Shown here: positions 12,502 through 33,784 of the stretch, in pieces
Numbering within the stretch: position 1 is the stretch's first letter
Layout: every line of letters starts with the position of its first letter
NCBI GenBank assembly: GCA_021824365.1
Contig: JAKAKY010000004.1
Coordinates: 1-33,784 of the forward strand
Length of the DNA stretch: 33,784 nucleotides
Source: Bacteroidota bacterium
GTDB taxonomy: Bacteria > Bacteroidota > Bacteroidia > Chitinophagales > Chitinophagaceae
Reading direction: 5' to 3'
Notes under the pieces: generated by a model
Told to the model about the DNA's origin: nothing
Database searches by the model: none
Seen by the model: only the letters and a program-made list of their open reading frames with translations
Made by a program: the position numbers and the translations under genes

Positions 12502-12538
12502 TGTATAGTATACAATAATTTTACCCTTTACAGGGTAA
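12502..12538 (-). promoter_or_regulatory. Hairpin over the leader-peptide stop, and adjoining palindrome
   Basis: TTACCCT and AGGGTAA (12521-12527 and 12532-12538) form a perfect seven-pair stem with a four-base loop. On the minus strand it contains the last three sense codons and the stop codon of the thr leader peptide. Next to it, 12502-12514 (TGTATAGTATACA) is a 13-base palindrome that could be a protein-binding site. Neither is followed by a T-run, so neither is itself a terminator. Confidence 0.35.
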
Positions 12539-12578
12539 TGGTTGTGGTAGCAAATATGTTCAGAATGGAGTTAAGCAT
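12528..12578 (-). CDS. thrL: thr operon leader peptide (16 codons, Thr/Ile rich)
   Basis: An ATG at 12578 opens a 16-codon frame reading MLNSILNIFATTTITL and ending in TAA at 12528. Four of residues 11-15 are Thr and the other is Ile; the codons are ACC ACA ACC ATT ACC. It lies 141 bases upstream of thrA on the same strand. A Thr/Ile run in a tiny ORF ahead of thrA is the hallmark of transcription attenuation, as in E. coli ThrL, where threonyl- and isoleucyl-tRNA supply controls ribosome stalling. The sequence outside that run does not resemble E. coli ThrL, so this is functional rather than obvious sequence homology. A strong downstream terminator was not found, so the exact mechanism is open. 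The gene symbol is used by analogy. Confidence 0.7.
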   Translation of the reverse strand: MLNSILNIFATTTITL

Positions 12579-26009: not shown

Positions 26010-26037
26010 ATCTAAGTTTTTAAGCAAAAATTTAGAT
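26010..26037 (-). terminator. Weak AT-rich hairpin overlapping the ilvA stop codon
   Basis: ATCTAA (26010-26015) pairs with TTAGAT (26032-26037), and TTTTT (26017-26021) with AAAAA (26026-26030), around the loop AAGC with one mismatch between the two stems. On the minus strand it is followed by TTATTATAC. It may end the ilv operon weakly, but the stem has almost no G-C pairs. Confidence 0.3.
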
Positions 26038-27285
26038 GAGATAGCTGTAAAGTGTGTCCTGTTTATTAATTTCAGTAAAATCGATGTAATTGTGTTGCAT
26101 TCTGGTTAAAAGGGGGGCATAATCATTACGGTCGGTTAATTCAATGCCTACTAAAGCCGGGCCTGTTTCTTTATTGGTTTTTTGCATGTACCCGAAGCGG
26201 GTAATATCATTATCAGGGCCTAATACTTTGTTTAAAAATTCTCTTAAAGCACCGGATCTTTGTGCAAATTGAATCAGGAAATAATGTTTCAATCCTTCGT
26301 ATTGTAAGGAACGCTCTTTAATTTCGGGCATTCTGTCAATATCATTGTTGCCACCGCTTACAATGCAAACCACTGTTTTATTTTTTATTGGAGTGGCATA
26401 TTGCTCAAGTGCAGCAATGCTTAAGGCACCGGCAGGTTCTGCTACTATGGCATTTTGGTTATAGAGGTTTAAGATGGTGGTACATACCTTCCCTTCGGGT
26501 ACCAAACAAATATTATTCAGTATTTCTTTGCAAATAGGGTAAGTAAGACTGCCTACTTTTTTAACAGCTGCACCATCTACAAAACGATCAATTTTTTGAA
26601 GCATTATCGGCTCACCGGCTTCAAAAGCTTTGTACATGGAAGGTGCCCCTTCAGGTTCTACCCCAATTAATTGGGTGTTGGGAGCATTTTGTTTAAAATA
26701 ACTGCCAACTCCGGCAGCTAATCCGCCACCTCCTATTGGCATGAATAGATAATCGATATGGGATAATGATTCAAGTATTTCTATGCCTACTGTTGATTGT
26801 CCCTCTATTACTTTCAGGTCATCGAACGGAGGAATAAATGTCATTTCATTTTTGAGGGTAAATTGTTGGGCTGCAAGGGCGCAATCATCAAAGGTATCGC
26901 CGGTTAATTTAATTTCAATGGCATCTTCACCAAACATTTTGGTTTGGTTAATTTTTTGTTTGGGTGTAATAATGGGCATAAATACAATACCCTTAATGCC
27001 TAAGTATTTGCAACTATACGCAAAGCCCTGTGCGTGGTTGCCTGCACTGGCGCAAACAACACCCTTTTTTAATTGGGTTTCGGAAAGGCTGTTTAACAAA
27101 TTAAATGCACCACGCAGTTTATAAGAGCGCACTATTTGTAAATCTTCGCGCTTTAAATAGATATTGCATTGGTATTGTTTGGATAAAACAGGATTATATT
27201 GCAAAGGGGTATGCAATACCACCTGCTTTAGTTTATGGTAAGCTTCATGGTAATTGAATGGATATGTTTTTTCTATTACATGCAT
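26032..27285 (-). CDS. ilvA: Threonine ammonia-lyase (threonine dehydratase), biosynthetic
   Basis: IlvA deaminates threonine to 2-oxobutanoate, the committed step to isoleucine. The protein has 417 residues. The PLP lysine is K56 in the motif IVRSYKLRGA (51-60). The phosphate-binding glycine loop reads GGGGLAAGVG. A single C-terminal ACT-like regulatory domain covers about 330-417, beginning near GLKHYFLIQFAQRSGALREF, so feedback by isoleucine is expected, as in the shorter Bacillus-type enzymes. The catabolic form lacks such a domain. It is the last gene of the ilv operon, 57 bases after ilvC, with a perfect 13-pair hairpin in that gap. Its substrate comes from the thr operon encoded elsewhere in this window. 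Confidence 0.95.
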   Translation of the reverse strand: MHVIEKTYPFNYHEAYHKLKQVVLHTPLQYNPVLSKQYQCNIYLKREDLQIVRSYKLRGAFNLLNSLSETQLKKGVVCASAGNHAQGFAYSCKYLGIKGIVFMPIITPKQKINQTKMFGEDAIEIKLTGDTFDDCALAAQQFTLKNEMTFIPPFDDLKVIEGQSTVGIEILESLSHIDYLFMPIGGGGLAAGVGSYFKQNAPNTQLIGVEPEGAPSMYKAFEAGEPIMLQKIDRFVDGAAVKKVGSLTYPICKEILNNICLVPEGKVCTTILNLYNQNAIVAEPAGALSIAALEQYATPIKNKTVVCIVSGGNNDIDRMPEIKERSLQYEGLKHYFLIQFAQRSGALREFLNKVLGPDNDITRFGYMQKTNKETGPALVGIELTDRNDYAPLLTRMQHNYIDFTEINKQDTLYSYLI

Positions 27286-27300
27286 TCCCGAATCTTTAAC

Positions 27301-27335
27301 AAAGATGATGGTGTATTGAGTGCACCATCATCTTT
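27301..27335 (-). promoter_or_regulatory. Perfect 13-pair hairpin between ilvC and ilvA
   Basis: AAAGATGATGGTG (27301-27313) is perfectly complementary to CACCATCATCTTT (27323-27335) with a nine-base loop. On the minus strand it ends 16 bases before the ilvA ATG and is followed by GTTAAAGATT, with no real T-run. It could be a partial terminator, an mRNA-stabilising or processing stem, or a structure limiting ilvA translation. It lies inside an apparent operon, so it may set the IlvA level separately from IlvC. Confidence 0.6.
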
Positions 27336-27342
27336 GTAGTAT

Positions 27343-28392
27343 TTATTTTTGATTTTCAGGCCTTAAACTACGTACGGTTTTACCGGCTTTCCACATTTCG
27401 CTTTCTCTTAATTCTTTCAATTCAACTTCTAATTTTTCACGATAATCGGGCTGGCTGTTCAGATCAATAGAACGCTGTGATTCTTTTCCGGCAGCAACGC
27501 TTTCATATAATTCTTTAAAAACGGGAGTTGTGGCATCTCTAAATTTTTTCCACCAGTCTAAAGCGCCTCTTTGTGCGGTGGTAGAGCAGTTGGCATACAT
27601 CCAATCCATACCATTTTCAGCAACTAACGGCATAAGGCTTTGTGTAAGTTCTTCTACTGTTTCGTTAAAAGCTTCGCTGGGTGAGTGGCCTTTATCGCGT
27701 AAAACCTGATACTGTGCCGCAAATATGCCCTGAATAGCGCCCATTAATGTGCCTCTTTCTCCGGTTAAATCACTATAAACCTCTTTTCTAAAATCGGTTT
27801 CAAATAAATAACCGCTACCTACGGCAATACCTAAAGCAATTACTCTATCTTTTGCTTTGCCTGTTGCATCCTGGTAAATGGCATAACTGCTGTTTAAGCC
27901 ACGGCCTTGTAAAAACATTCTTCTTAATGAAGTACCCGAACCCTTTGGGGCTACTAAAAATACATCTACATCTTTTGGCGGAATGATGCCGGTTTGTTCA
28001 TTGAAAGTGATGCCAAAGCCATGTGAGAAGTAAAGCGCTTTACCTGGTGTAAGATGTTTTTTAACTGTGGGCCATAAGGCTATTTGTGCTGCATCGCTTA
28101 GCAGGTAACAAATGATAGTGCCTCTTTGCAATGCTTCTTCAATTTCAAATAAAGTTTGGCCGGGTACAAAACCATCGGCAATGGCTTTATCCCATGTTTT
28201 AGAGTTTTTACGTTGTCCTACAATTACATTAATACCATTGTCGCGTTGGTTTAAAGCTTGTCCGGGTCCCTGAACGCCATACCCAATTACAGCAACAGTT
28301 TCATTTTTTAAAACTTCCTGTGCTTTTGATAATGGAAATTCTTCGCGGGTTACTACGTTTTCTTCAACACCGCCGAAATTCAATTTTGCCAT
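27343..28392 (-). CDS. ilvC: Ketol-acid reductoisomerase
   Basis: IlvC isomerises and reduces 2-acetolactate and 2-aceto-2-hydroxybutanoate with NAD(P)H and magnesium, giving the dihydroxy acids used by IlvD. The protein has 349 residues, a class I-like length. The Rossmann loop is GYGVQGPGQALN (37-48), where many bacteria have GYGSQGHAHALN; I recall the GPGQ variant as usual in Bacteroidota. The cofactor-specificity loop reads VGQRKNSKTW (58-67). Active-site candidates are H124 (SHGFGI), and D208 and E212 as metal ligands in EVYSDLTGERG. The gene lies 45 bases after ilvN and upstream of ilvA in the same operon. The cofactor preference cannot be decided by eye. Confidence 0.96.
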   Translation of the reverse strand: MAKLNFGGVEENVVTREEFPLSKAQEVLKNETVAVIGYGVQGPGQALNQRDNGINVIVGQRKNSKTWDKAIADGFVPGQTLFEIEEALQRGTIICYLLSDAAQIALWPTVKKHLTPGKALYFSHGFGITFNEQTGIIPPKDVDVFLVAPKGSGTSLRRMFLQGRGLNSSYAIYQDATGKAKDRVIALGIAVGSGYLFETDFRKEVYSDLTGERGTLMGAIQGIFAAQYQVLRDKGHSPSEAFNETVEELTQSLMPLVAENGMDWMYANCSTTAQRGALDWWKKFRDATTPVFKELYESVAAGKESQRSIDLNSQPDYREKLEVELKELRESEMWKAGKTVRSLRPENQK

Positions 28393-28437: not shown

Positions 28438-29025
28438 TTACATGGTAAATACTTCTGCCTGTTTACTGAGGTATACATTTTCAATTACTTCCTCACCGGG
28501 CTCAGTTTGTTCAAATTCTTTTAATTTTTCATGGAAGCCATGACTCGATTTGATGATGGCTACTCTTGCACTTCTTACAAATTCAATTAAGCCATAAGGT
28601 TCTAAAAATTTCACCAATCGATCGGTTTCTTCCCGATGGCCGGATGTTTCAAAAACGGTATAATCTTTTCTAATTACAACCGCTCTTGCGCCATATTCTC
28701 TCAATAACCTTTCTACTTTTACTTTTTCTGCAATGGCTTCTGTAGAAACTTTATACATGGCCAGTTCTTGCCATACAATTTCATCTTCTGTATTATAGTA
28801 TGCTTTCAAAACTTCTACCTGTTTTTCTATTTGGCGGCATAGTTTTCTTACTACATCTTCGGTTTCATTAATAACAATGGTAAACCGGTGTATACCTTCC
28901 GATTCGGAAGGAGAAGTATTGAGGCTTTCAATATTGATTTTTCTACGCGAAAAAATGATGGCAATTCGGTTTAAAAGGCCAATTTGGTTTTCGGTATAAA
29001 CGGTAATGGTAAATTCCTGTTTCAT
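28438..29025 (-). CDS. ilvN: Acetolactate synthase small (regulatory) subunit
   Basis: The small subunit activates the catalytic subunit IlvB and confers feedback inhibition, usually by valine. The start at 29025 gives 195 residues beginning MKQEFTITVYTENQIGLLNR. A longer frame from 29088 would add 21 unrelated residues and overlap ilvB, so I reject it. The ACT domain spans about 1-75, with the ligand loop around NQIGLLNRIAIIFSRRKINI and SESEGIHRFTIVI. A second domain typical of longer small subunits follows, with EYGARAVVIRKDYTVFETSG and PYGLIEFVRSARVAI. The gene follows ilvB by 32 bases and precedes ilvC by 45, inside the ilv operon. Confidence 0.95.
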   Translation of the reverse strand: MKQEFTITVYTENQIGLLNRIAIIFSRRKINIESLNTSPSESEGIHRFTIVINETEDVVRKLCRQIEKQVEVLKAYYNTEDEIVWQELAMYKVSTEAIAEKVKVERLLREYGARAVVIRKDYTVFETSGHREETDRLVKFLEPYGLIEFVRSARVAIIKSSHGFHEKLKEFEQTEPGEEVIENVYLSKQAEVFTM

Positions 29026-29057
29026 GTTTGTGCTATTATAATTTGAATGAATTGCAA

Positions 29058-30803
29058 TTACTGTAACCTGATTTCTGCAACGCTGCAACCCTGCGGCACC
29101 ATTGGGAAAACATTGTTTTCTTTACCAACCATTACTTCCAATAAATAGCTGCCATTATGATTCAGCATGGTTTGTAATGCATTTTTCAAATCTTTTCTTT
29201 TATCAATACTATTGGCTTCAATGTGGTAGGCTTTGGCTAATTGAACAAAATCGGGGCTGGTAATATCTACAAACGAGTAGCGCTTGTCGTTAAATAATTG
29301 CTGCCATTGCCGAACCATGCCCAGAAACCGGTTATTTAATATTAATATTTTTACATCTACATTAAATTGCATAATGGTACCTAATTCCTGAAGGGTCATT
29401 TGAAAACCCCCATCGCCTGTAATGGCTACTACTGTACGGTTAGGTGCGCCATATTTTGCGCCAATGGCTGCCGGTAAGCCAAAACCCATGGTACCTGCTC
29501 CACCCGATGTGATGTTGCTTTTCGACTGATTGAATTTAGCATAACGGCAGGCTACCATTTGGTGTTGGCCAACATCTGTAACAATAATGGCATTACCGTT
29601 GGTTAATTCATTCAAAGTTTTAATTACTTCGCCCATGGTCATGATATCGGTGCGTGGATTCAGTTCTTCATGTATCACTACATCATATTCTTTCTGGGCA
29701 AATTCACTGAACTTGTCAATCCATACTTTATTTTGATTGGGCTGTATTAATTTGGTGAGCATGGGTAAGGTTTCTTTGCAATCGCCCCAAACCGCTACCG
29801 TTGTTTGTACATTTTTGTCAATTTCAGCGGGGTCAATGTCTAAATGAATTACTTTGGCTTGTTTGGCATATTTATCTAAACGGCCGGTTACCCTGTCGTC
29901 AAAACGCATACCCACAGCAATCAACACATCACATTCGTTGGTTAATACATTAGGGCCATAATTACCGTGCATTCCTAACATGCCCACATTTAAAGGATGA
30001 TCTGTTGGCAGGGCACTTAATCCTAAAAGTGTCCATGCAGCGGGTAAATTAGCTTTTTCTATGAATGCTTTAAACTCGTTTTCTGCTTTGCCTAAAATAA
30101 CACCCTGGCCAAATAAAACAAAAGGTTTTTTTGCTTCATTGATAAGTTGTGCGGCTTTTTCAATAAATTCTTTTCTTATAATTGGTTTTGGGCGGTAGCT
30201 TCTAATATGTTCGCATTTTTTGTAACCTTCATAATCAAATTTTTGCAACTGTGCATTTTTGGTAATATCAATTAAAACCGGTCCGGGCCTTCCGGTACGT
30301 GCAATGTAAAAGGCTTTGGCTAAAACATGTGGTATTTCAGTTGCGTCAGTAACCTGGTAATTCCATTTTGTAATAGGTGTTGTAATATTGATTACATCTA
30401 CTTCCTGAAAAGCATCAGTACCTAACAGGTGTGCAAAAACCTGGCCGGTTACACAAACTAGCGGAGTACTATCTATCATAGCATCTGCTAATCCTGTTAC
30501 CAAATTGGTTGCACCCGGGCCACTTGTAGCAAATACAACACCGGTTCTACCCGAACTACGGGCATAGCCTTGTGCTGCATGAATGGCACCTTGTTCGTGC
30601 CTTACCAGTATGTGTGTCAGTTCTTTATTATAATCGTACAATGCATCATAAATAGGCATAATGGCTCCACCGGGATATCCAAATATCGTATCTATCCCTT
30701 CTGCTATGAAGGCTTCTAATACTGCTTGTGAGCCGGAAATATTAGTTGTGTTGCCGGGTGTTGAGGCTGCAATATTTTTAGGTGCTGTAAGTATAGTTTC
30801 CAT
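29058..30803 (-). CDS. ilvB: Acetolactate synthase large (catalytic) subunit
   Basis: This thiamine-diphosphate enzyme condenses two pyruvates to acetolactate (valine, leucine), or pyruvate with 2-oxobutanoate to acetohydroxybutanoate (isoleucine). The protein has 581 residues. The N-terminal ThDP domain contains FGYPGGAIMPIYDAL (41-55) and the catalytic E70 in RHEQGAIHAAQGYARS. The middle FAD-binding domain follows. The C-terminal ThDP and magnesium motif runs from GDGGFQMTLQELGT to the NNRFLGMVRQWQQLF block. The biosynthetic (AHAS) type is supported by the adjacent small subunit. The gene begins 14 bases after the ilvD stop, so translation of the two may be coupled. Confidence 0.97.
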   Translation of the reverse strand: METILTAPKNIAASTPGNTTNISGSQAVLEAFIAEGIDTIFGYPGGAIMPIYDALYDYNKELTHILVRHEQGAIHAAQGYARSSGRTGVVFATSGPGATNLVTGLADAMIDSTPLVCVTGQVFAHLLGTDAFQEVDVINITTPITKWNYQVTDATEIPHVLAKAFYIARTGRPGPVLIDITKNAQLQKFDYEGYKKCEHIRSYRPKPIIRKEFIEKAAQLINEAKKPFVLFGQGVILGKAENEFKAFIEKANLPAAWTLLGLSALPTDHPLNVGMLGMHGNYGPNVLTNECDVLIAVGMRFDDRVTGRLDKYAKQAKVIHLDIDPAEIDKNVQTTVAVWGDCKETLPMLTKLIQPNQNKVWIDKFSEFAQKEYDVVIHEELNPRTDIMTMGEVIKTLNELTNGNAIIVTDVGQHQMVACRYAKFNQSKSNITSGGAGTMGFGLPAAIGAKYGAPNRTVVAITGDGGFQMTLQELGTIMQFNVDVKILILNNRFLGMVRQWQQLFNDKRYSFVDITSPDFVQLAKAYHIEANSIDKRKDLKNALQTMLNHNGSYLLEVMVGKENNVFPMVPQGCSVAEIRLQ

Positions 30804-30817
30804 GAAAATAATTTTAA

Positions 30818-32518
30818 TTATGATTGAAATGGTTGTTCATCGGTAACACAACCTTCTGAAGCTGATGTTACCAACTGAGCATATTTATACAAAATGCCAT
30901 TGGTTGCTTTTAAGGCAGGGCGTTTCCATTTTGATTTTCGGGTTTCAATAATGCTATTATCTACTAACAAATTGATGGTATTTTTTACCGCATCAATTTC
31001 AATAATATCATCATTTTCTACCAGCGCTAATAAACCACCTGTAAATGCTTCCGGGGTAATATGGCCTACCACAAATCCGTGTGTTCCACCACTGAAACGC
31101 CCGTCGGTAATTAGTGCCACACTTTTGCCTAAACCTGCACCAATAATGGCACTGGTAGGTTTTAGCATTTCGGGCATACCGGGTGCACCTTTGGGGCCTA
31201 TGTAGCGAATTACGACGACATCGCCAGGTTGAATTAAATTATTTTCAATGCCTTTAATAAAATCGTGTTCTCCATCAAATACACGTGCAGTGCCTTTAAA
31301 ATGGGTGCCTTCTTTACCGCTAATTTTTGCAACGGCCCCTTCGGCAGCCAGATTTCCAAATAAAATTTGCAAATGCCCTGTTACTTTAAGGGGTTGTTCA
31401 ATGGGCCTGATAACCTGTTGTTGGTTAAAATCCAAATCGGGTGCAGTAGTTACATTTTCTGCTATTGTTTTTCCGGTAACAGTAAGGCATTGACTGTGTA
31501 AGAACCCTTTTTTTAATAAATATTTTATTACTGCAGGAAGCCCGCCATATTGGTGTAAATCTTCCATTAAATATTTACCACTTGGCTTAAAGTCGGCCAG
31601 TACCGGTACTTTATTACTAATTTTTTGAAAGTCGTTGATGTTTAAAGGTATGCCTACACTTTTGGCTATGGCTATTAAGTGAAGCACAGCATTGGTACTG
31701 CCTCCTAAAACCATTATAACGGTAATTGCATTTTCAAAAGCTTCACGAGTCATAATATCTCTTGGCTTAATATCTTTTTCCAGTAAAACTTTGATGGCTT
31801 TACCGGCTGCTTCACATTCTTTTTGTTTATCTTTGCTTAATGCGGGATTGCTGGAGGAATAGGGTAGGCTCATGCCTAATGCTTCAATAGCCGAGGCCAT
31901 GGTGTTAGCAGTATACATACCACCACATGCACCGGCACCCGGACAGGCATGCTGAATAATACCTTTAAAATCACCTTCACTTAATTTGCCTGCTATTTTT
32001 TGGCCTAATGCTTCAAATGCAGAAACAATATTCAAGTCTTCACCTTTATAATGCCCGGGAGCAATGGTTCCGCCATAAATCATTAATCCGGGCCTGTTTA
32101 GTCTTCCCATAGCCATAACAGAACCCGGCATGTTTTTATCGCAACCCGGTATAGTAATTAAACCGTCATAGTATTGTGCACCTGCATTGGTTTCTATGCT
32201 ATCGGCAATTAAATCCCTACTCACCAACGAATAACGCATACCGTCTGTCCCCATACTTATACCATCACTTACACCAATGGTATAAAATCGTAATCCTAAC
32301 AAACCTTCTGTTGCGTTAACACTTTTTTTCACTTCTGTAGCCATATCATTCAAATGCATATTGCAGGGGTTACCATCCCAACCCATACTGGCTATCCCAA
32401 CTTGTGCTTTATTAAAATCTTCATCTTTAAAACCAATAGCATAATACATTGATTGCGCTGCCGGGTGTGTTTCATCTTGTGTTAATGTTTTACTGTATTT
32501 GTTTAATTCGTTTAGCAT
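30818..32518 (-). CDS. ilvD: Dihydroxy-acid dehydratase
   Basis: IlvD dehydrates 2,3-dihydroxy-isovalerate and -methylvalerate to the 2-oxo acids that IlvE aminates. The protein has 566 residues, normal length. Cluster cysteines are in GNPCNMH (C52), GCDKNMPG (C126) and [18 protein letters not shown] (C192 and C198). Three of them, C52, C126 and C198, match the spacing of the [2Fe-2S] type of this family rather than an E. coli-like [4Fe-4S] enzyme; this assignment rests on pattern only. The C-terminal domain contains [20 protein letters not shown]. It lies between ilvE (30 bases) and ilvB (14 bases) in a tightly packed operon. Confidence 0.97.
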
Positions 32519-32548: not shown

Positions 32549-33454
32549 TTATTCCGTTCCTAATACTTCATTTAGAAGTGTTTTTTTATTTTCCGCAATT
32601 AAATTTTTATAGGTTGTTTGAATGAGTTTACTGATGGTTTCAGCCCAGGGTTTTGTAAAGGGTTTATCATCTAATGAAGCAATACCAATTACTTCTGCTG
32701 CCGTTCCGCAGAAGAAAGCTGCATCTGCATGATACATATCTTCAATTTTAAATTGTATTTCTTTAGCGGGGATATTTAATTCATTGCACAATTCCAAAAT
32801 GGTTGCACGTGTTATACCGGGTAAAATATTTCCTAATTGGGGTGTGAACAATGTACCATTCTTTTCAAAAAATACATTGGCACCGGGGGCTTCTGCCACA
32901 TAGCCATGCATGTCTAACAAAAGCGCCTCATCATATCCTTTTTGTTTTGCTTCCTGACTGGCTAAAATGGAATTTACATAGTGCCCGGTAGCTTTTGCAT
33001 GAATGTGAAAAGCTTTCGGATTGGGCCTTTCAAAAGAAGAAGTAACTACCCGTAACATTTTATCGCCTAAAAAGGGATCCATTTGCCAGGCTTCAATAAC
33101 AATATGTGAGGTAGTATTTTTAGCAAAACTCATATTGGCTGGGGCATAAACTAACGGACGTATATAGGCGTCTTGTAAATCATTTAATGCTAATACTTTG
33201 TAAGCAGCTTCTATCAATTCTTCAACTGTATAAGGGTATGGCAAATTCAGTGCCTGTGCAGATTGTTGCAGCCTTTCAAAATGTGCCTCTGCCTTAAATA
33301 TTTTTGTTGTTCCTGCTATTGTTTTATAGGAGCGAATACCCTCAAAAACACCATATCCGTAGTGTAAGGTTTGGCTATACAAGTCGGTATTGGCATCGGC
33401 TGCTTTTACATAACTGCCGTTTAAGTAAATAAAAGTATTTTGGTTGTAATACAT
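32549..33454 (-). CDS. ilvE: Branched-chain amino acid aminotransferase
   Basis: IlvE transfers the amino group of glutamate to the 2-oxo acids of isoleucine, valine and leucine. It is a fold-type IV PLP enzyme of 301 residues. The early motif LHYGYGVFEGIRSY (30-43) is typical, the PLP lysine is K154 in IHAKATGHYVNSILA, and the phosphate-binding region follows around YDEALLLDMHGYVAEAPGAN and GTAAEVIGIASLDD. D-amino acid transaminases share the fold, but the operon context settles the assignment. It is the first structural gene after the leader peptide and terminator, so it is the gene most directly exposed to attenuation. Its glutamate donor is made by GltBD encoded nearby. Confidence 0.95.
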   Translation of the reverse strand: MYYNQNTFIYLNGSYVKAADANTDLYSQTLHYGYGVFEGIRSYKTIAGTTKIFKAEAHFERLQQSAQALNLPYPYTVEELIEAAYKVLALNDLQDAYIRPLVYAPANMSFAKNTTSHIVIEAWQMDPFLGDKMLRVVTSSFERPNPKAFHIHAKATGHYVNSILASQEAKQKGYDEALLLDMHGYVAEAPGANVFFEKNGTLFTPQLGNILPGITRATILELCNELNIPAKEIQFKIEDMYHADAAFFCGTAAEVIGIASLDDKPFTKPWAETISKLIQTTYKNLIAENKKTLLNEVLGTE

Positions 33455-33477
33455 GTGTTTGTTTTTGTTGTATGAAA

Positions 33478-33506
33478 TAAAAAACCCGCCTTTGTTGAGG
33501 CGGGTT
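33478..33506 (-). terminator. Attenuator terminator of the ilv operon
   Basis: On the minus strand, AACCCGCCT (33506-33498) pairs perfectly over nine bases with AGGCGGGTT (33491-33483) around a six-base loop, followed by a T-run (TTTTTTA, 33484-33478). It sits after the leader-peptide stop and 23 bases before the ilvE ATG, so it would stop transcription before the structural genes. The leader segment at 33537-33547 can pair with its 5' arm instead (33497-33508; 9 of 11 positions), forming a plausible antiterminator. Confidence 0.88.
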
Positions 33507-33536
33507 AAATTTGTTTATTGGTTAGAACAAATAAAA

Positions 33537-33635
33537 TTACCCCCCTCCAAGGACAGGCAGGATAATGACAATAACAATAACTGCTGAAATTACCGACAGT
33601 TGAAATGAAATAGCATTATATAATTTGTTCTTCAA
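33537..33635 (-). CDS. ilvL: ilv operon leader peptide (32 codons, Val/Ile/Leu rich)
   Basis: A TTG at 33635, preceded by an A9 tract, opens a 32-codon frame ending in TAA at 33537. It begins MKNKLYNAISFQLS, and residues 15-29 are VISAVIVIVIILPVL: five Val, five Ile and two Leu out of 15. It ends in three Gly codons, GGA GGG GGG. No in-frame ATG exists between the upstream stop at 33695-33693 and this point, so the TTG start is inferred. The control codons fit the operon, which makes isoleucine and valine and has no leu genes. The final G-rich codons double as the antiterminator strand, which explains the odd Gly tail. The arrangement parallels E. coli IlvL without evident sequence homology. 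The symbol is by analogy. Confidence 0.85.
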   Translation of the reverse strand: MKNKLYNAISFQLSVISAVIVIVIILPVLGGG

Positions 33636-33652
33636 TTTTTTTTTATTTGGAA

Positions 33653-33683
33653 CAAATATACCTGTTGTATGCGTATGAACAAA
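33653..33683 (-). promoter_or_regulatory. Promoter of the ilv operon, Bacteroidota type
   Basis: On the minus strand, TTTG (33683-33680) is followed after exactly 19 bases by TATATTTG (33660-33653). Both elements match the Bacteroidota consensus (TTTG / TAnnTTTG) and so does the spacing. Initiation a few bases downstream, near 33648, would leave about 12 bases before the leader-peptide start. This is the best promoter match in the window. Confidence 0.85.
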
Positions 33684-33709
33684 GAACTTTTTTATTGAAC
33701 AAGCGGGGA

Positions 33710-33784
33710 CTAAATAATAGTCGACTTGCGCAACTCAATATTTTTGTGATTAATATCCTCGAAATTGTTGTTACTGGCTATAAA
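33710..33784 (-). CDS. Possible 3' end of an unidentified upstream gene
   Basis: On the minus strand the frame entering the window at 33784 stays open for 24 codons, reading FIASNNNFEDINHKNIELRK and then STII before TAG. The composition looks protein-like, with codons such as GAG TTG CGC AAG. It stops 27 bases before the ilv promoter, where an upstream co-directional gene could end. The piece is too short to identify and may be chance. No terminator is visible after it. Confidence 0.3.
   Translation of the reverse strand, partial: FIASNNNFEDINHKNIELRKSTII

Follow-up and report, generated by a model that had tools for sequence, protein, structure and literature searches.

The ilv operon and the leader ahead of it

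The window analysed here, meaning the whole stretch of 33,784 nucleotides, is contig C67 of a 2.9 Mb genome from the family Chitinophagaceae. Judged by IlvE, the nearest named relatives are Hydrotalea flava (93% identical) and H. sandarakina (89%). The minus strand carries six consecutive genes, all identified by NCBIfam models above cut-off: ilvE, branched-chain aminotransferase (32549-33454; NF005146 and TIGR01122); ilvD, dihydroxy-acid dehydratase (30818-32518; TIGR00110); ilvB and ilvN, the large and small subunits of acetolactate synthase (29058-30803, TIGR00118, and 28438-29088, TIGR00119); ilvC, ketol-acid reductoisomerase (27343-28392; TIGR00465); and ilvA, threonine ammonia-lyase (26032-27285; TIGR02079). 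The products of the operon are valine and isoleucine, which matches the regulatory codons of the leader described below. Inside the operon, the gap between ilvC and ilvA holds an 18-pair hairpin (27299-27337), after which there is no T run on the minus strand.

Reading the minus strand from 33683 to 33475, a promoter-like element, a 32-codon ORF and a T-tailed hairpin precede ilvE, the first gene. Promoters of the Bacteroidota type have the consensus TTTG/TAnnTTTG, to which the window's element conforms exactly. Here the -33 element TTTG (33680-33683) is separated by a 19-bp spacer from the -7 element TATATTTG (33653-33660), and transcription is predicted to start at about 33648. The predicted leader peptide LKNKLYNAISFQLSVISAVIVIVIILPVLGGG is encoded at 33537-33635, with a TTG start at 33635 and a TAA stop codon at 33539-33537. 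Twelve of its residues 15-29 are Ile, Leu or Val; the core of the regulatory run, Val-Ile-Val-Ile-Val-Ile-Ile, covers residues 19-25 (33561-33581) and is followed by Leu26, Val28 and Leu29. The intrinsic terminator AACCCGCCT-CAACAA-AGGCGGGTT (33483-33506) consists of nine pairs closed by the loop CAACAA, has a predicted energy of -15.2 kcal/mol and runs directly into the U-rich tail TTTTATTT (33475-33482), with 28 nt lying between the hairpin and ilvE. The original prediction had placed exactly this promoter, this TTG-started ORF with its 12 Val, Ile or Leu residues and this nine-pair terminator ahead of ilvE, and all of them were recovered from the sequence and its translation.

The last codons of the leader and the first base of its stop codon form the antiterminator arm GAGGGGGGT (33539-33547), which pairs with positions 33505-33497 in the 5' arm of the terminator with one G.G mismatch. 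The duplex has a predicted energy of -16.6 kcal/mol and was equalled by 0.7% of 300 shuffles. The pairing of the terminal Gly codons with the terminator, as originally proposed, is conserved in the relatives.

The run of branched-chain residues is by itself not very rare, as at least 12 Ile, Leu or Val residues occur in 11 of the 30,321 in-frame 15-mers of the window. These 11 form six separate places, and by their coordinates the other five lie in or opposite long ORFs. The weight of the evidence is in the combination of elements and their conservation, not in the Val/Ile/Leu run alone. No Rfam family, including the T-box and riboswitch families, matched at the gathering score over the 33,784 bases of the window. 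At E up to 10, none of the Rfam leader families (the Phe, Trp, His and Thr leaders among them) came over threshold at 33440-33784, where the best match was Phe_leader with 27.1 bits against the 55 needed. Comparison of the leader peptide with NCBIfam and Pfam gave a single Pfam match (E 0.31), under its cut-off.

Conservation of the leader in Chitinophagaceae

A set of loci was chosen through IlvE while the leader was ignored; after removal of three duplicates it comprised 34 distinct ones, among them that of the window. In 18 of them, a leader ORF with Val/Ile codons and, after it, a terminator were found: in 17 of the 19 Chitinophagaceae loci (L007 being placed in the family by similarity only) and in one Bacteroidia MAG (L025). 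This is what the original prediction had expected of the region upstream of ilvE in relatives, and the case that it had named as contrary, a terminator kept after loss of the ORF or of its Val/Ile bias, was not seen in the family within this set. The 16 loci lacking the leader comprise ten of Sphingobacterium, two in which ilvE stands close behind the preceding gene (L008, L036), two whose upstream sequence spans just 118 and 143 nt (L037 and L038, the latter divergent and ambiguous), and L023 and L039. None of the ten Sphingobacterium loci showed the leader within 420 nt of ilvE; at nine of them a hairpin of unrelated appearance stands roughly 290-335 nt ahead of this gene, without an ORF of the kind.

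The frame is kept at the three remaining Hydrotalea loci (L004, L005, L006), which start at the same place with TTG, TTG and GTG, and also in other members of the family. In the 18 leaders, the distance from the run to the arm is 12 nt in 11 cases and 9-15 nt in all, and the distance from the start of the arm to the end of the stop codon varies from 9 to 21 nt. The arm and terminator form a duplex matched by at most 5% of 300 shuffles in 16 of the 18 (not in L007 and L032). Pairing of Hydrotalea arms with their own terminators (-15.8) had no advantage over pairing with terminators from other groups (-16.7, -16.8).

A covariance model of run, arm and terminator (R1), built from leaders with a Val/Ile run, was used for the family-wide survey. 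It matched in 155 of 244 family genomes at E up to 0.01 and in 130 at E up to 2.1e-6, the latter matches being termed strong. In the same draw of genomes ilvD was found in 161. A strong match and ilvD occurred together in 125 genomes, the leader only in 5, ilvD only in 36 and neither in 78 (Fisher 6e-29). The leader is not universal, there being no strong match in 36 of the 161 genomes holding ilvD. Altogether 110 loci were read: 100 out of the 130 with a strong match, plus 10 with a weak one. The first downstream ORF of the 100 strong loci encodes IlvE in 66 and IlvD in 31 (97 in total); the remaining three show an ORF without a name (L068), a short, putatively ACT-like ORF (L080) and none that was found nearby (L077). 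The 10 weak loci precede ilvD in three cases and other amino-acid genes in six, two of these (L147, L148) being assigned by likeness to L145 and L146, and one is at a contig end.

The 97 strong and three weak leaders before ilvE or ilvD make up the 100 located leaders. A T-tailed terminator was picked by script in 99 of them (none in L092), with a pick that seems wrong in L095 and L098 at least. Over these 99 leaders the arm/terminator duplex averaged -15.6 kcal/mol versus -6.8 for shuffles, and at most 5% of 100 shuffles paired as well in 96 (not in L095, L128 and L129). Gap and composition figures obtained through R1 are partly selected by the model, and the 18 leaders of the IlvE-seeded set serve as their control: the run-to-arm gap is 11-13 nt in 75 of 99 leaders (median 12, sd 2.1), and of the 1188 residues in the richest 12-residue stretches 524 are Ile, 399 Val and 77 Leu. 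Across the family, sensing would mainly concern codons of Ile and Val, not of Leu. Within the runs, position 2 is T in 85% of codons, position 1 is A or G in 91% and position 3 is mixed, a pattern which indicates that amino acids are kept rather than a nucleotide repeat. The position of the stop codon floats, its end lying from -3 to 33 nt from the start of the arm (sd 5.0); in L106 and L141 it falls at or before the arm, yet the gap is 12 nt. A near-fixed gap together with a floating stop codon fits a stalled-ribosome mechanism, in which the front edge of the ribosome must end just short of the arm.

The promoter-like element is conserved as well. In the 50 nt before the leader, a loose -7 box (TA..TT[TC][GA]) occurs in 92 of 100 loci versus 15.1 expected from mononucleotide shuffles, and the strict TAnnTTTG in 38 versus 4.6. 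In 59 of these 92 relatives the start codon follows the end of the box after 16-18 nt. The distance in the window, 17 nt, falls within this mode and supports the TTG start. Automatic start choice settled on other ATGs at L044 and L069, both of Hydrotalea, so that the scripted count of start codons is in error at these two loci. A TTG within the -33 region is present in 61 of 92 relatives, a count made without a control.

Covariation, which the original prediction had suggested as a check, speaks for the terminator; for the antiterminator, the signal in the family alignment was weak. In alignment A3, both sides have changed at every one of the nine stem pairs; its 103 rows include three low-scoring opposite-strand matches, and it is fitted to the terminator of the model and hence leans towards the stem. 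The antiterminator is conserved in the rigid family alignment with weak covariation: five double-changed cells were counted versus 1.7 after shuffling, 10 of 500 shuffles scored as high, and slides by two columns still paired at 78-85%. For this reason an alignment-free swap test was used, which covered leaders of the whole class.

Related leaders in the class Bacteroidia

At E up to 0.01, R1 matched in 85 of 248 order-level and 87 of 395 class-level genomes, family members included; many of the weak matches at these levels may be due to chance. Five matches that were read (L207, L208, L213, L176 and L192) are not leaders. Divergent ilv leaders were found in several other families, and in these different arms match different terminators. 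The swap test took ilv leaders and those for other amino acids together, with 37 leader units recovered from 32 of the 36 loci given (the script returned no unit for L175, L202, L206 and L149). Arms paired with their own terminators at -14.1 and with swapped ones at -9.2, and 0 of 5000 permutations were as good. Covariation of the antiterminator across the class is clear without any alignment. The class-wide run-to-arm gaps derived by script are looser (median 9, sd 4.4).

Tandem units of Val/Ile leader and terminator before a single ilv operon were seen by eye in L198, L199, L201, L202, L209 and L212. Adjacent R1 matches accompany L198, L199, L209 and L212, and such matches occur in pairs in the genomes G435, G375, G680 and G459. 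Two units were recovered by script in L177, L189, L201 and L209 and, before asnA, in L190.

Related leaders precede thrA, pheA, phhA, asnA, hisG, ilvA, a cysteine synthase-like gene and a serine O-acetyltransferase gene. These genes were named by their best NCBIfam match, which is under the cut-off of the model for L146 (prephenate dehydratase) and L206 (cysteine synthase). Leaders with Tyr codons stand before phenylalanine 4-monooxygenase in L145, L147 and L188 (the genes of L145 and L188 identified by NCBIfam), and Phe/Tyr leaders before prephenate dehydratase in L146 and L148. Before AsnA (TIGR00669), L190 carries at 1350-1648 two Asn-rich leaders in tandem, MKTNFNNNFYFNPKN and MMNFYFNNNFNYATPPGGD, both with a terminator of their own; an asnA leader peptide was not met with in the best 10 of 27 literature matches. 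Runs of Cys codons were noted by eye in the leader MKHTLFTCCCCCCLLRT before the cysteine synthase-like gene (L206) and in MHAPVNCCCCIATP before serine O-acetyltransferase (L149). The leader MTNFNNIIIAIISIIAIQQ, found in L214 upstream of ilvA (141-1382), contains eight Ile and no Val, which matches the isoleucine-only role of the enzyme.

Two further leaders were observed by eye in the window's own genome, a His-codon leader MTFSSIYMHHHTLPTL before hisG (L220, contig C47) with the arm GTAAGC, and a Phe/Tyr-codon leader MKQIAANTGFCFFFYYYFNQ before pheA (L221, contig C247) with the arm GCCGGGTGT; both arms are complementary to their own terminators. No Leu leader was seen by eye in the 255 nt before the putative leuA of Hydrotalea flava.

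The window itself holds a second leader, MLNSILNIFATTTITL (12528-12578, minus strand), ahead of thrA-thrB-thrC (12386-7555). Its stop codon lies in the loop of a conserved hairpin, ACCC-TGTAA-AGGGT (12521-12539), and a CATATCATCC-like box follows downstream in relatives. No clear intrinsic terminator was found at this Thr leader. The motif occurs in 47 of 244 family genomes versus 12 for a reversed control pattern, and 23 of the 30 motif loci fetched precede a putative aspartokinase-like start.

Probable attenuation, its alternatives and its meaning

The ilv leader is interpreted, with a probability of about 90%, as a ribosome-mediated transcription attenuator of the ilvEDBNCA operon that senses a shortage of valine or isoleucine. 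RNA polymerase would start at about 33648, and a ribosome would translate the 32 codons of the leader. If Val-tRNA or Ile-tRNA is short, the ribosome is expected to stall in the Val/Ile run, and its front edge would end before the arm GAGGGGGGT, leaving it free. The free arm would pair with the 5' arm of the terminator as soon as the latter is transcribed, so that no terminator forms and the operon is read. When both amino acids are plentiful, the ribosome would reach the stop codon and cover the arm, and the terminator could form. By sequence and folding, the locus shows these features of an attenuator: an ORF between the promoter and the first gene, codons in it for the amino acids of the operon, an intrinsic terminator, and a predicted antiterminator that excludes the terminator depending on the position of the ribosome.

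A ribosome footprint extends from -18 to +13 around the A site. In masked folding, this block was made inaccessible and all RNA upstream was kept unpaired. With the A site at codons 15-23 the window leader folded into the antiterminator, and with the A site at codons 24-33 into the full terminator, which supports the switch predicted for the window; the original scheme of read-through upon stalling and termination upon arrival at the stop codon is reproduced. In a nascent RNA ending at 33491, the arm was still predicted to pair with the A site up to codon 27, not beyond. Stalling at Leu26, Val28 or Leu29 would, in the same folding model, cover the arm and favour termination. Folded unmasked, the leader forms the terminator (z -3.35). 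A protector or pause hairpin (region 1:2) is a feature of attenuators of the E. coli trp type. Such a hairpin did not rise above shuffles in the present leaders, as the arm was paired upstream in 77 of 85 versus 76 of 85 with shuffled upstream sequence.

The leader might sense valine and isoleucine and act through Rho, mRNA decay or ilvE translation, the hairpin being secondary. A precedent is the similar ilvB leader of Streptomyces coelicolor, where mutation of the candidate regulatory codons was without effect (cited in PMC1262725), a result that also speaks against the attenuator reading; the conserved Thr leader of the same window, too, has no obvious intrinsic terminator. This output is nevertheless improbable, given the T-tailed hairpin assigned by script in 99 of 100 leaders (with at least L095 and L098 looking wrong), the changes on both sides of all nine stem pairs (in an alignment fitted to the stem), and the fact that the partner of the leader's last codons is the 5' arm of the terminator itself.

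It is much less probable still that the ORF encodes a functional small membrane peptide and that the terminator is independent of it. Twelve Ile, Leu or Val residues out of 15 are strongly hydrophobic, and equally rich stretches occur at the five other places of the window; however, Ile and Val outnumber Leu, Phe and Ala, unlike in general hydrophobicity, and the composition of the run tracks the gene downstream, as in the Ile-only leader before ilvA (L214). Runs of Thr, His, Phe, Tyr, Asn and Cys codons precede genes of their own pathways, and the leader's last codons pair with the terminator. The hairpin could also merely end an upstream transcript beside an incidental ORF, since directly upstream the same strand carries a coding end interpreted as that of leuB. 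This is the least probable explanation of all: the conserved promoter-like box and the leader stand between the putative leuB and the hairpin, the leader frame is conserved across the family, and leaders precede ilvD as the first gene in 31 of the 100 strong loci read. Attenuation by a stalled ribosome is thus the best-supported reading, and the original observation is confirmed in all checked details.

The kind of regulation is known and classical. Attenuators of the E. coli ilv operons consist of a short ORF rich in branched-chain codons, a terminator before the operon and an antiterminator favoured by stalling. The present leader is alike in these three respects and differs from those of ilvGMEDA and ilvBN in its peptide, in the scarcity of Leu codons, in having no protector hairpin above shuffles and in the position of the arm, which is found among the last codons or at the stop codon, in most cases 11-13 nt past the last codon of the run. 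Both E. coli operons are named among leader-peptide attenuators (PMC1183508). Actinobacterial ilvB leaders similarly combine Ile/Val/Leu codons and a terminator before ilv genes (PMC1262725). Within the phylum, strong clues for leader-peptide attenuation before amino-acid operons have been reported in Flavobacterium psychrophilum, with pheA and hisG elements named, so that attenuation was already suggested there; the term 'ilv' is absent from the main text of that study, and its section on these elements gives no arm geometry (PMC9723704). Leader-peptide-like (attenuator-like) sORFs were also described in 5' UTRs of Bacteroides thetaiotaomicron, the example given being upstream of a hypothetical gene, with validation left to the future (PMC7366714). 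Among the literature matches listed, by titles and abstract starts, no ilv leader was described in Bacteroidota.

The possible wider network is more interesting than the ilv leader itself. On balance, we lean towards a broad and largely undescribed attenuation network in the class Bacteroidia that shares a single compact layout: after the regulatory codons come some 12 nt and then an arm with complementarity to the 5' arm of the terminator, and the stop codon may lie anywhere. It would cover ilv, thr, his, phe, phhA (Tyr), asnA (Asn) and cys genes and include tandem attenuators before one operon as well as the second, Thr-leader type with its stop codon in the loop of a conserved hairpin and no evident intrinsic terminator. 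Ribosomes of Bacteroidia have been reported not to recognise Shine-Dalgarno sequences (PMC9976891), and G-rich arms such as GGAGG would therefore be harmless in leaders, where they could sit without acting as ribosome-binding sites.

For branched-chain amino-acid synthesis, the analysis offers a regulatory mechanism that is specific and testable, in a phylum for which the literature matches listed hold little on attenuation. As no Rfam family reaches threshold, the leader could be added to Rfam. An attenuator would imply a coupling of transcription and translation in the phylum that is close enough for attenuation to work. If the mechanism is true, the near-fixed distance between codons and arm, combined with a floating stop codon, would be a natural measure of the front edge of the stalled ribosome.
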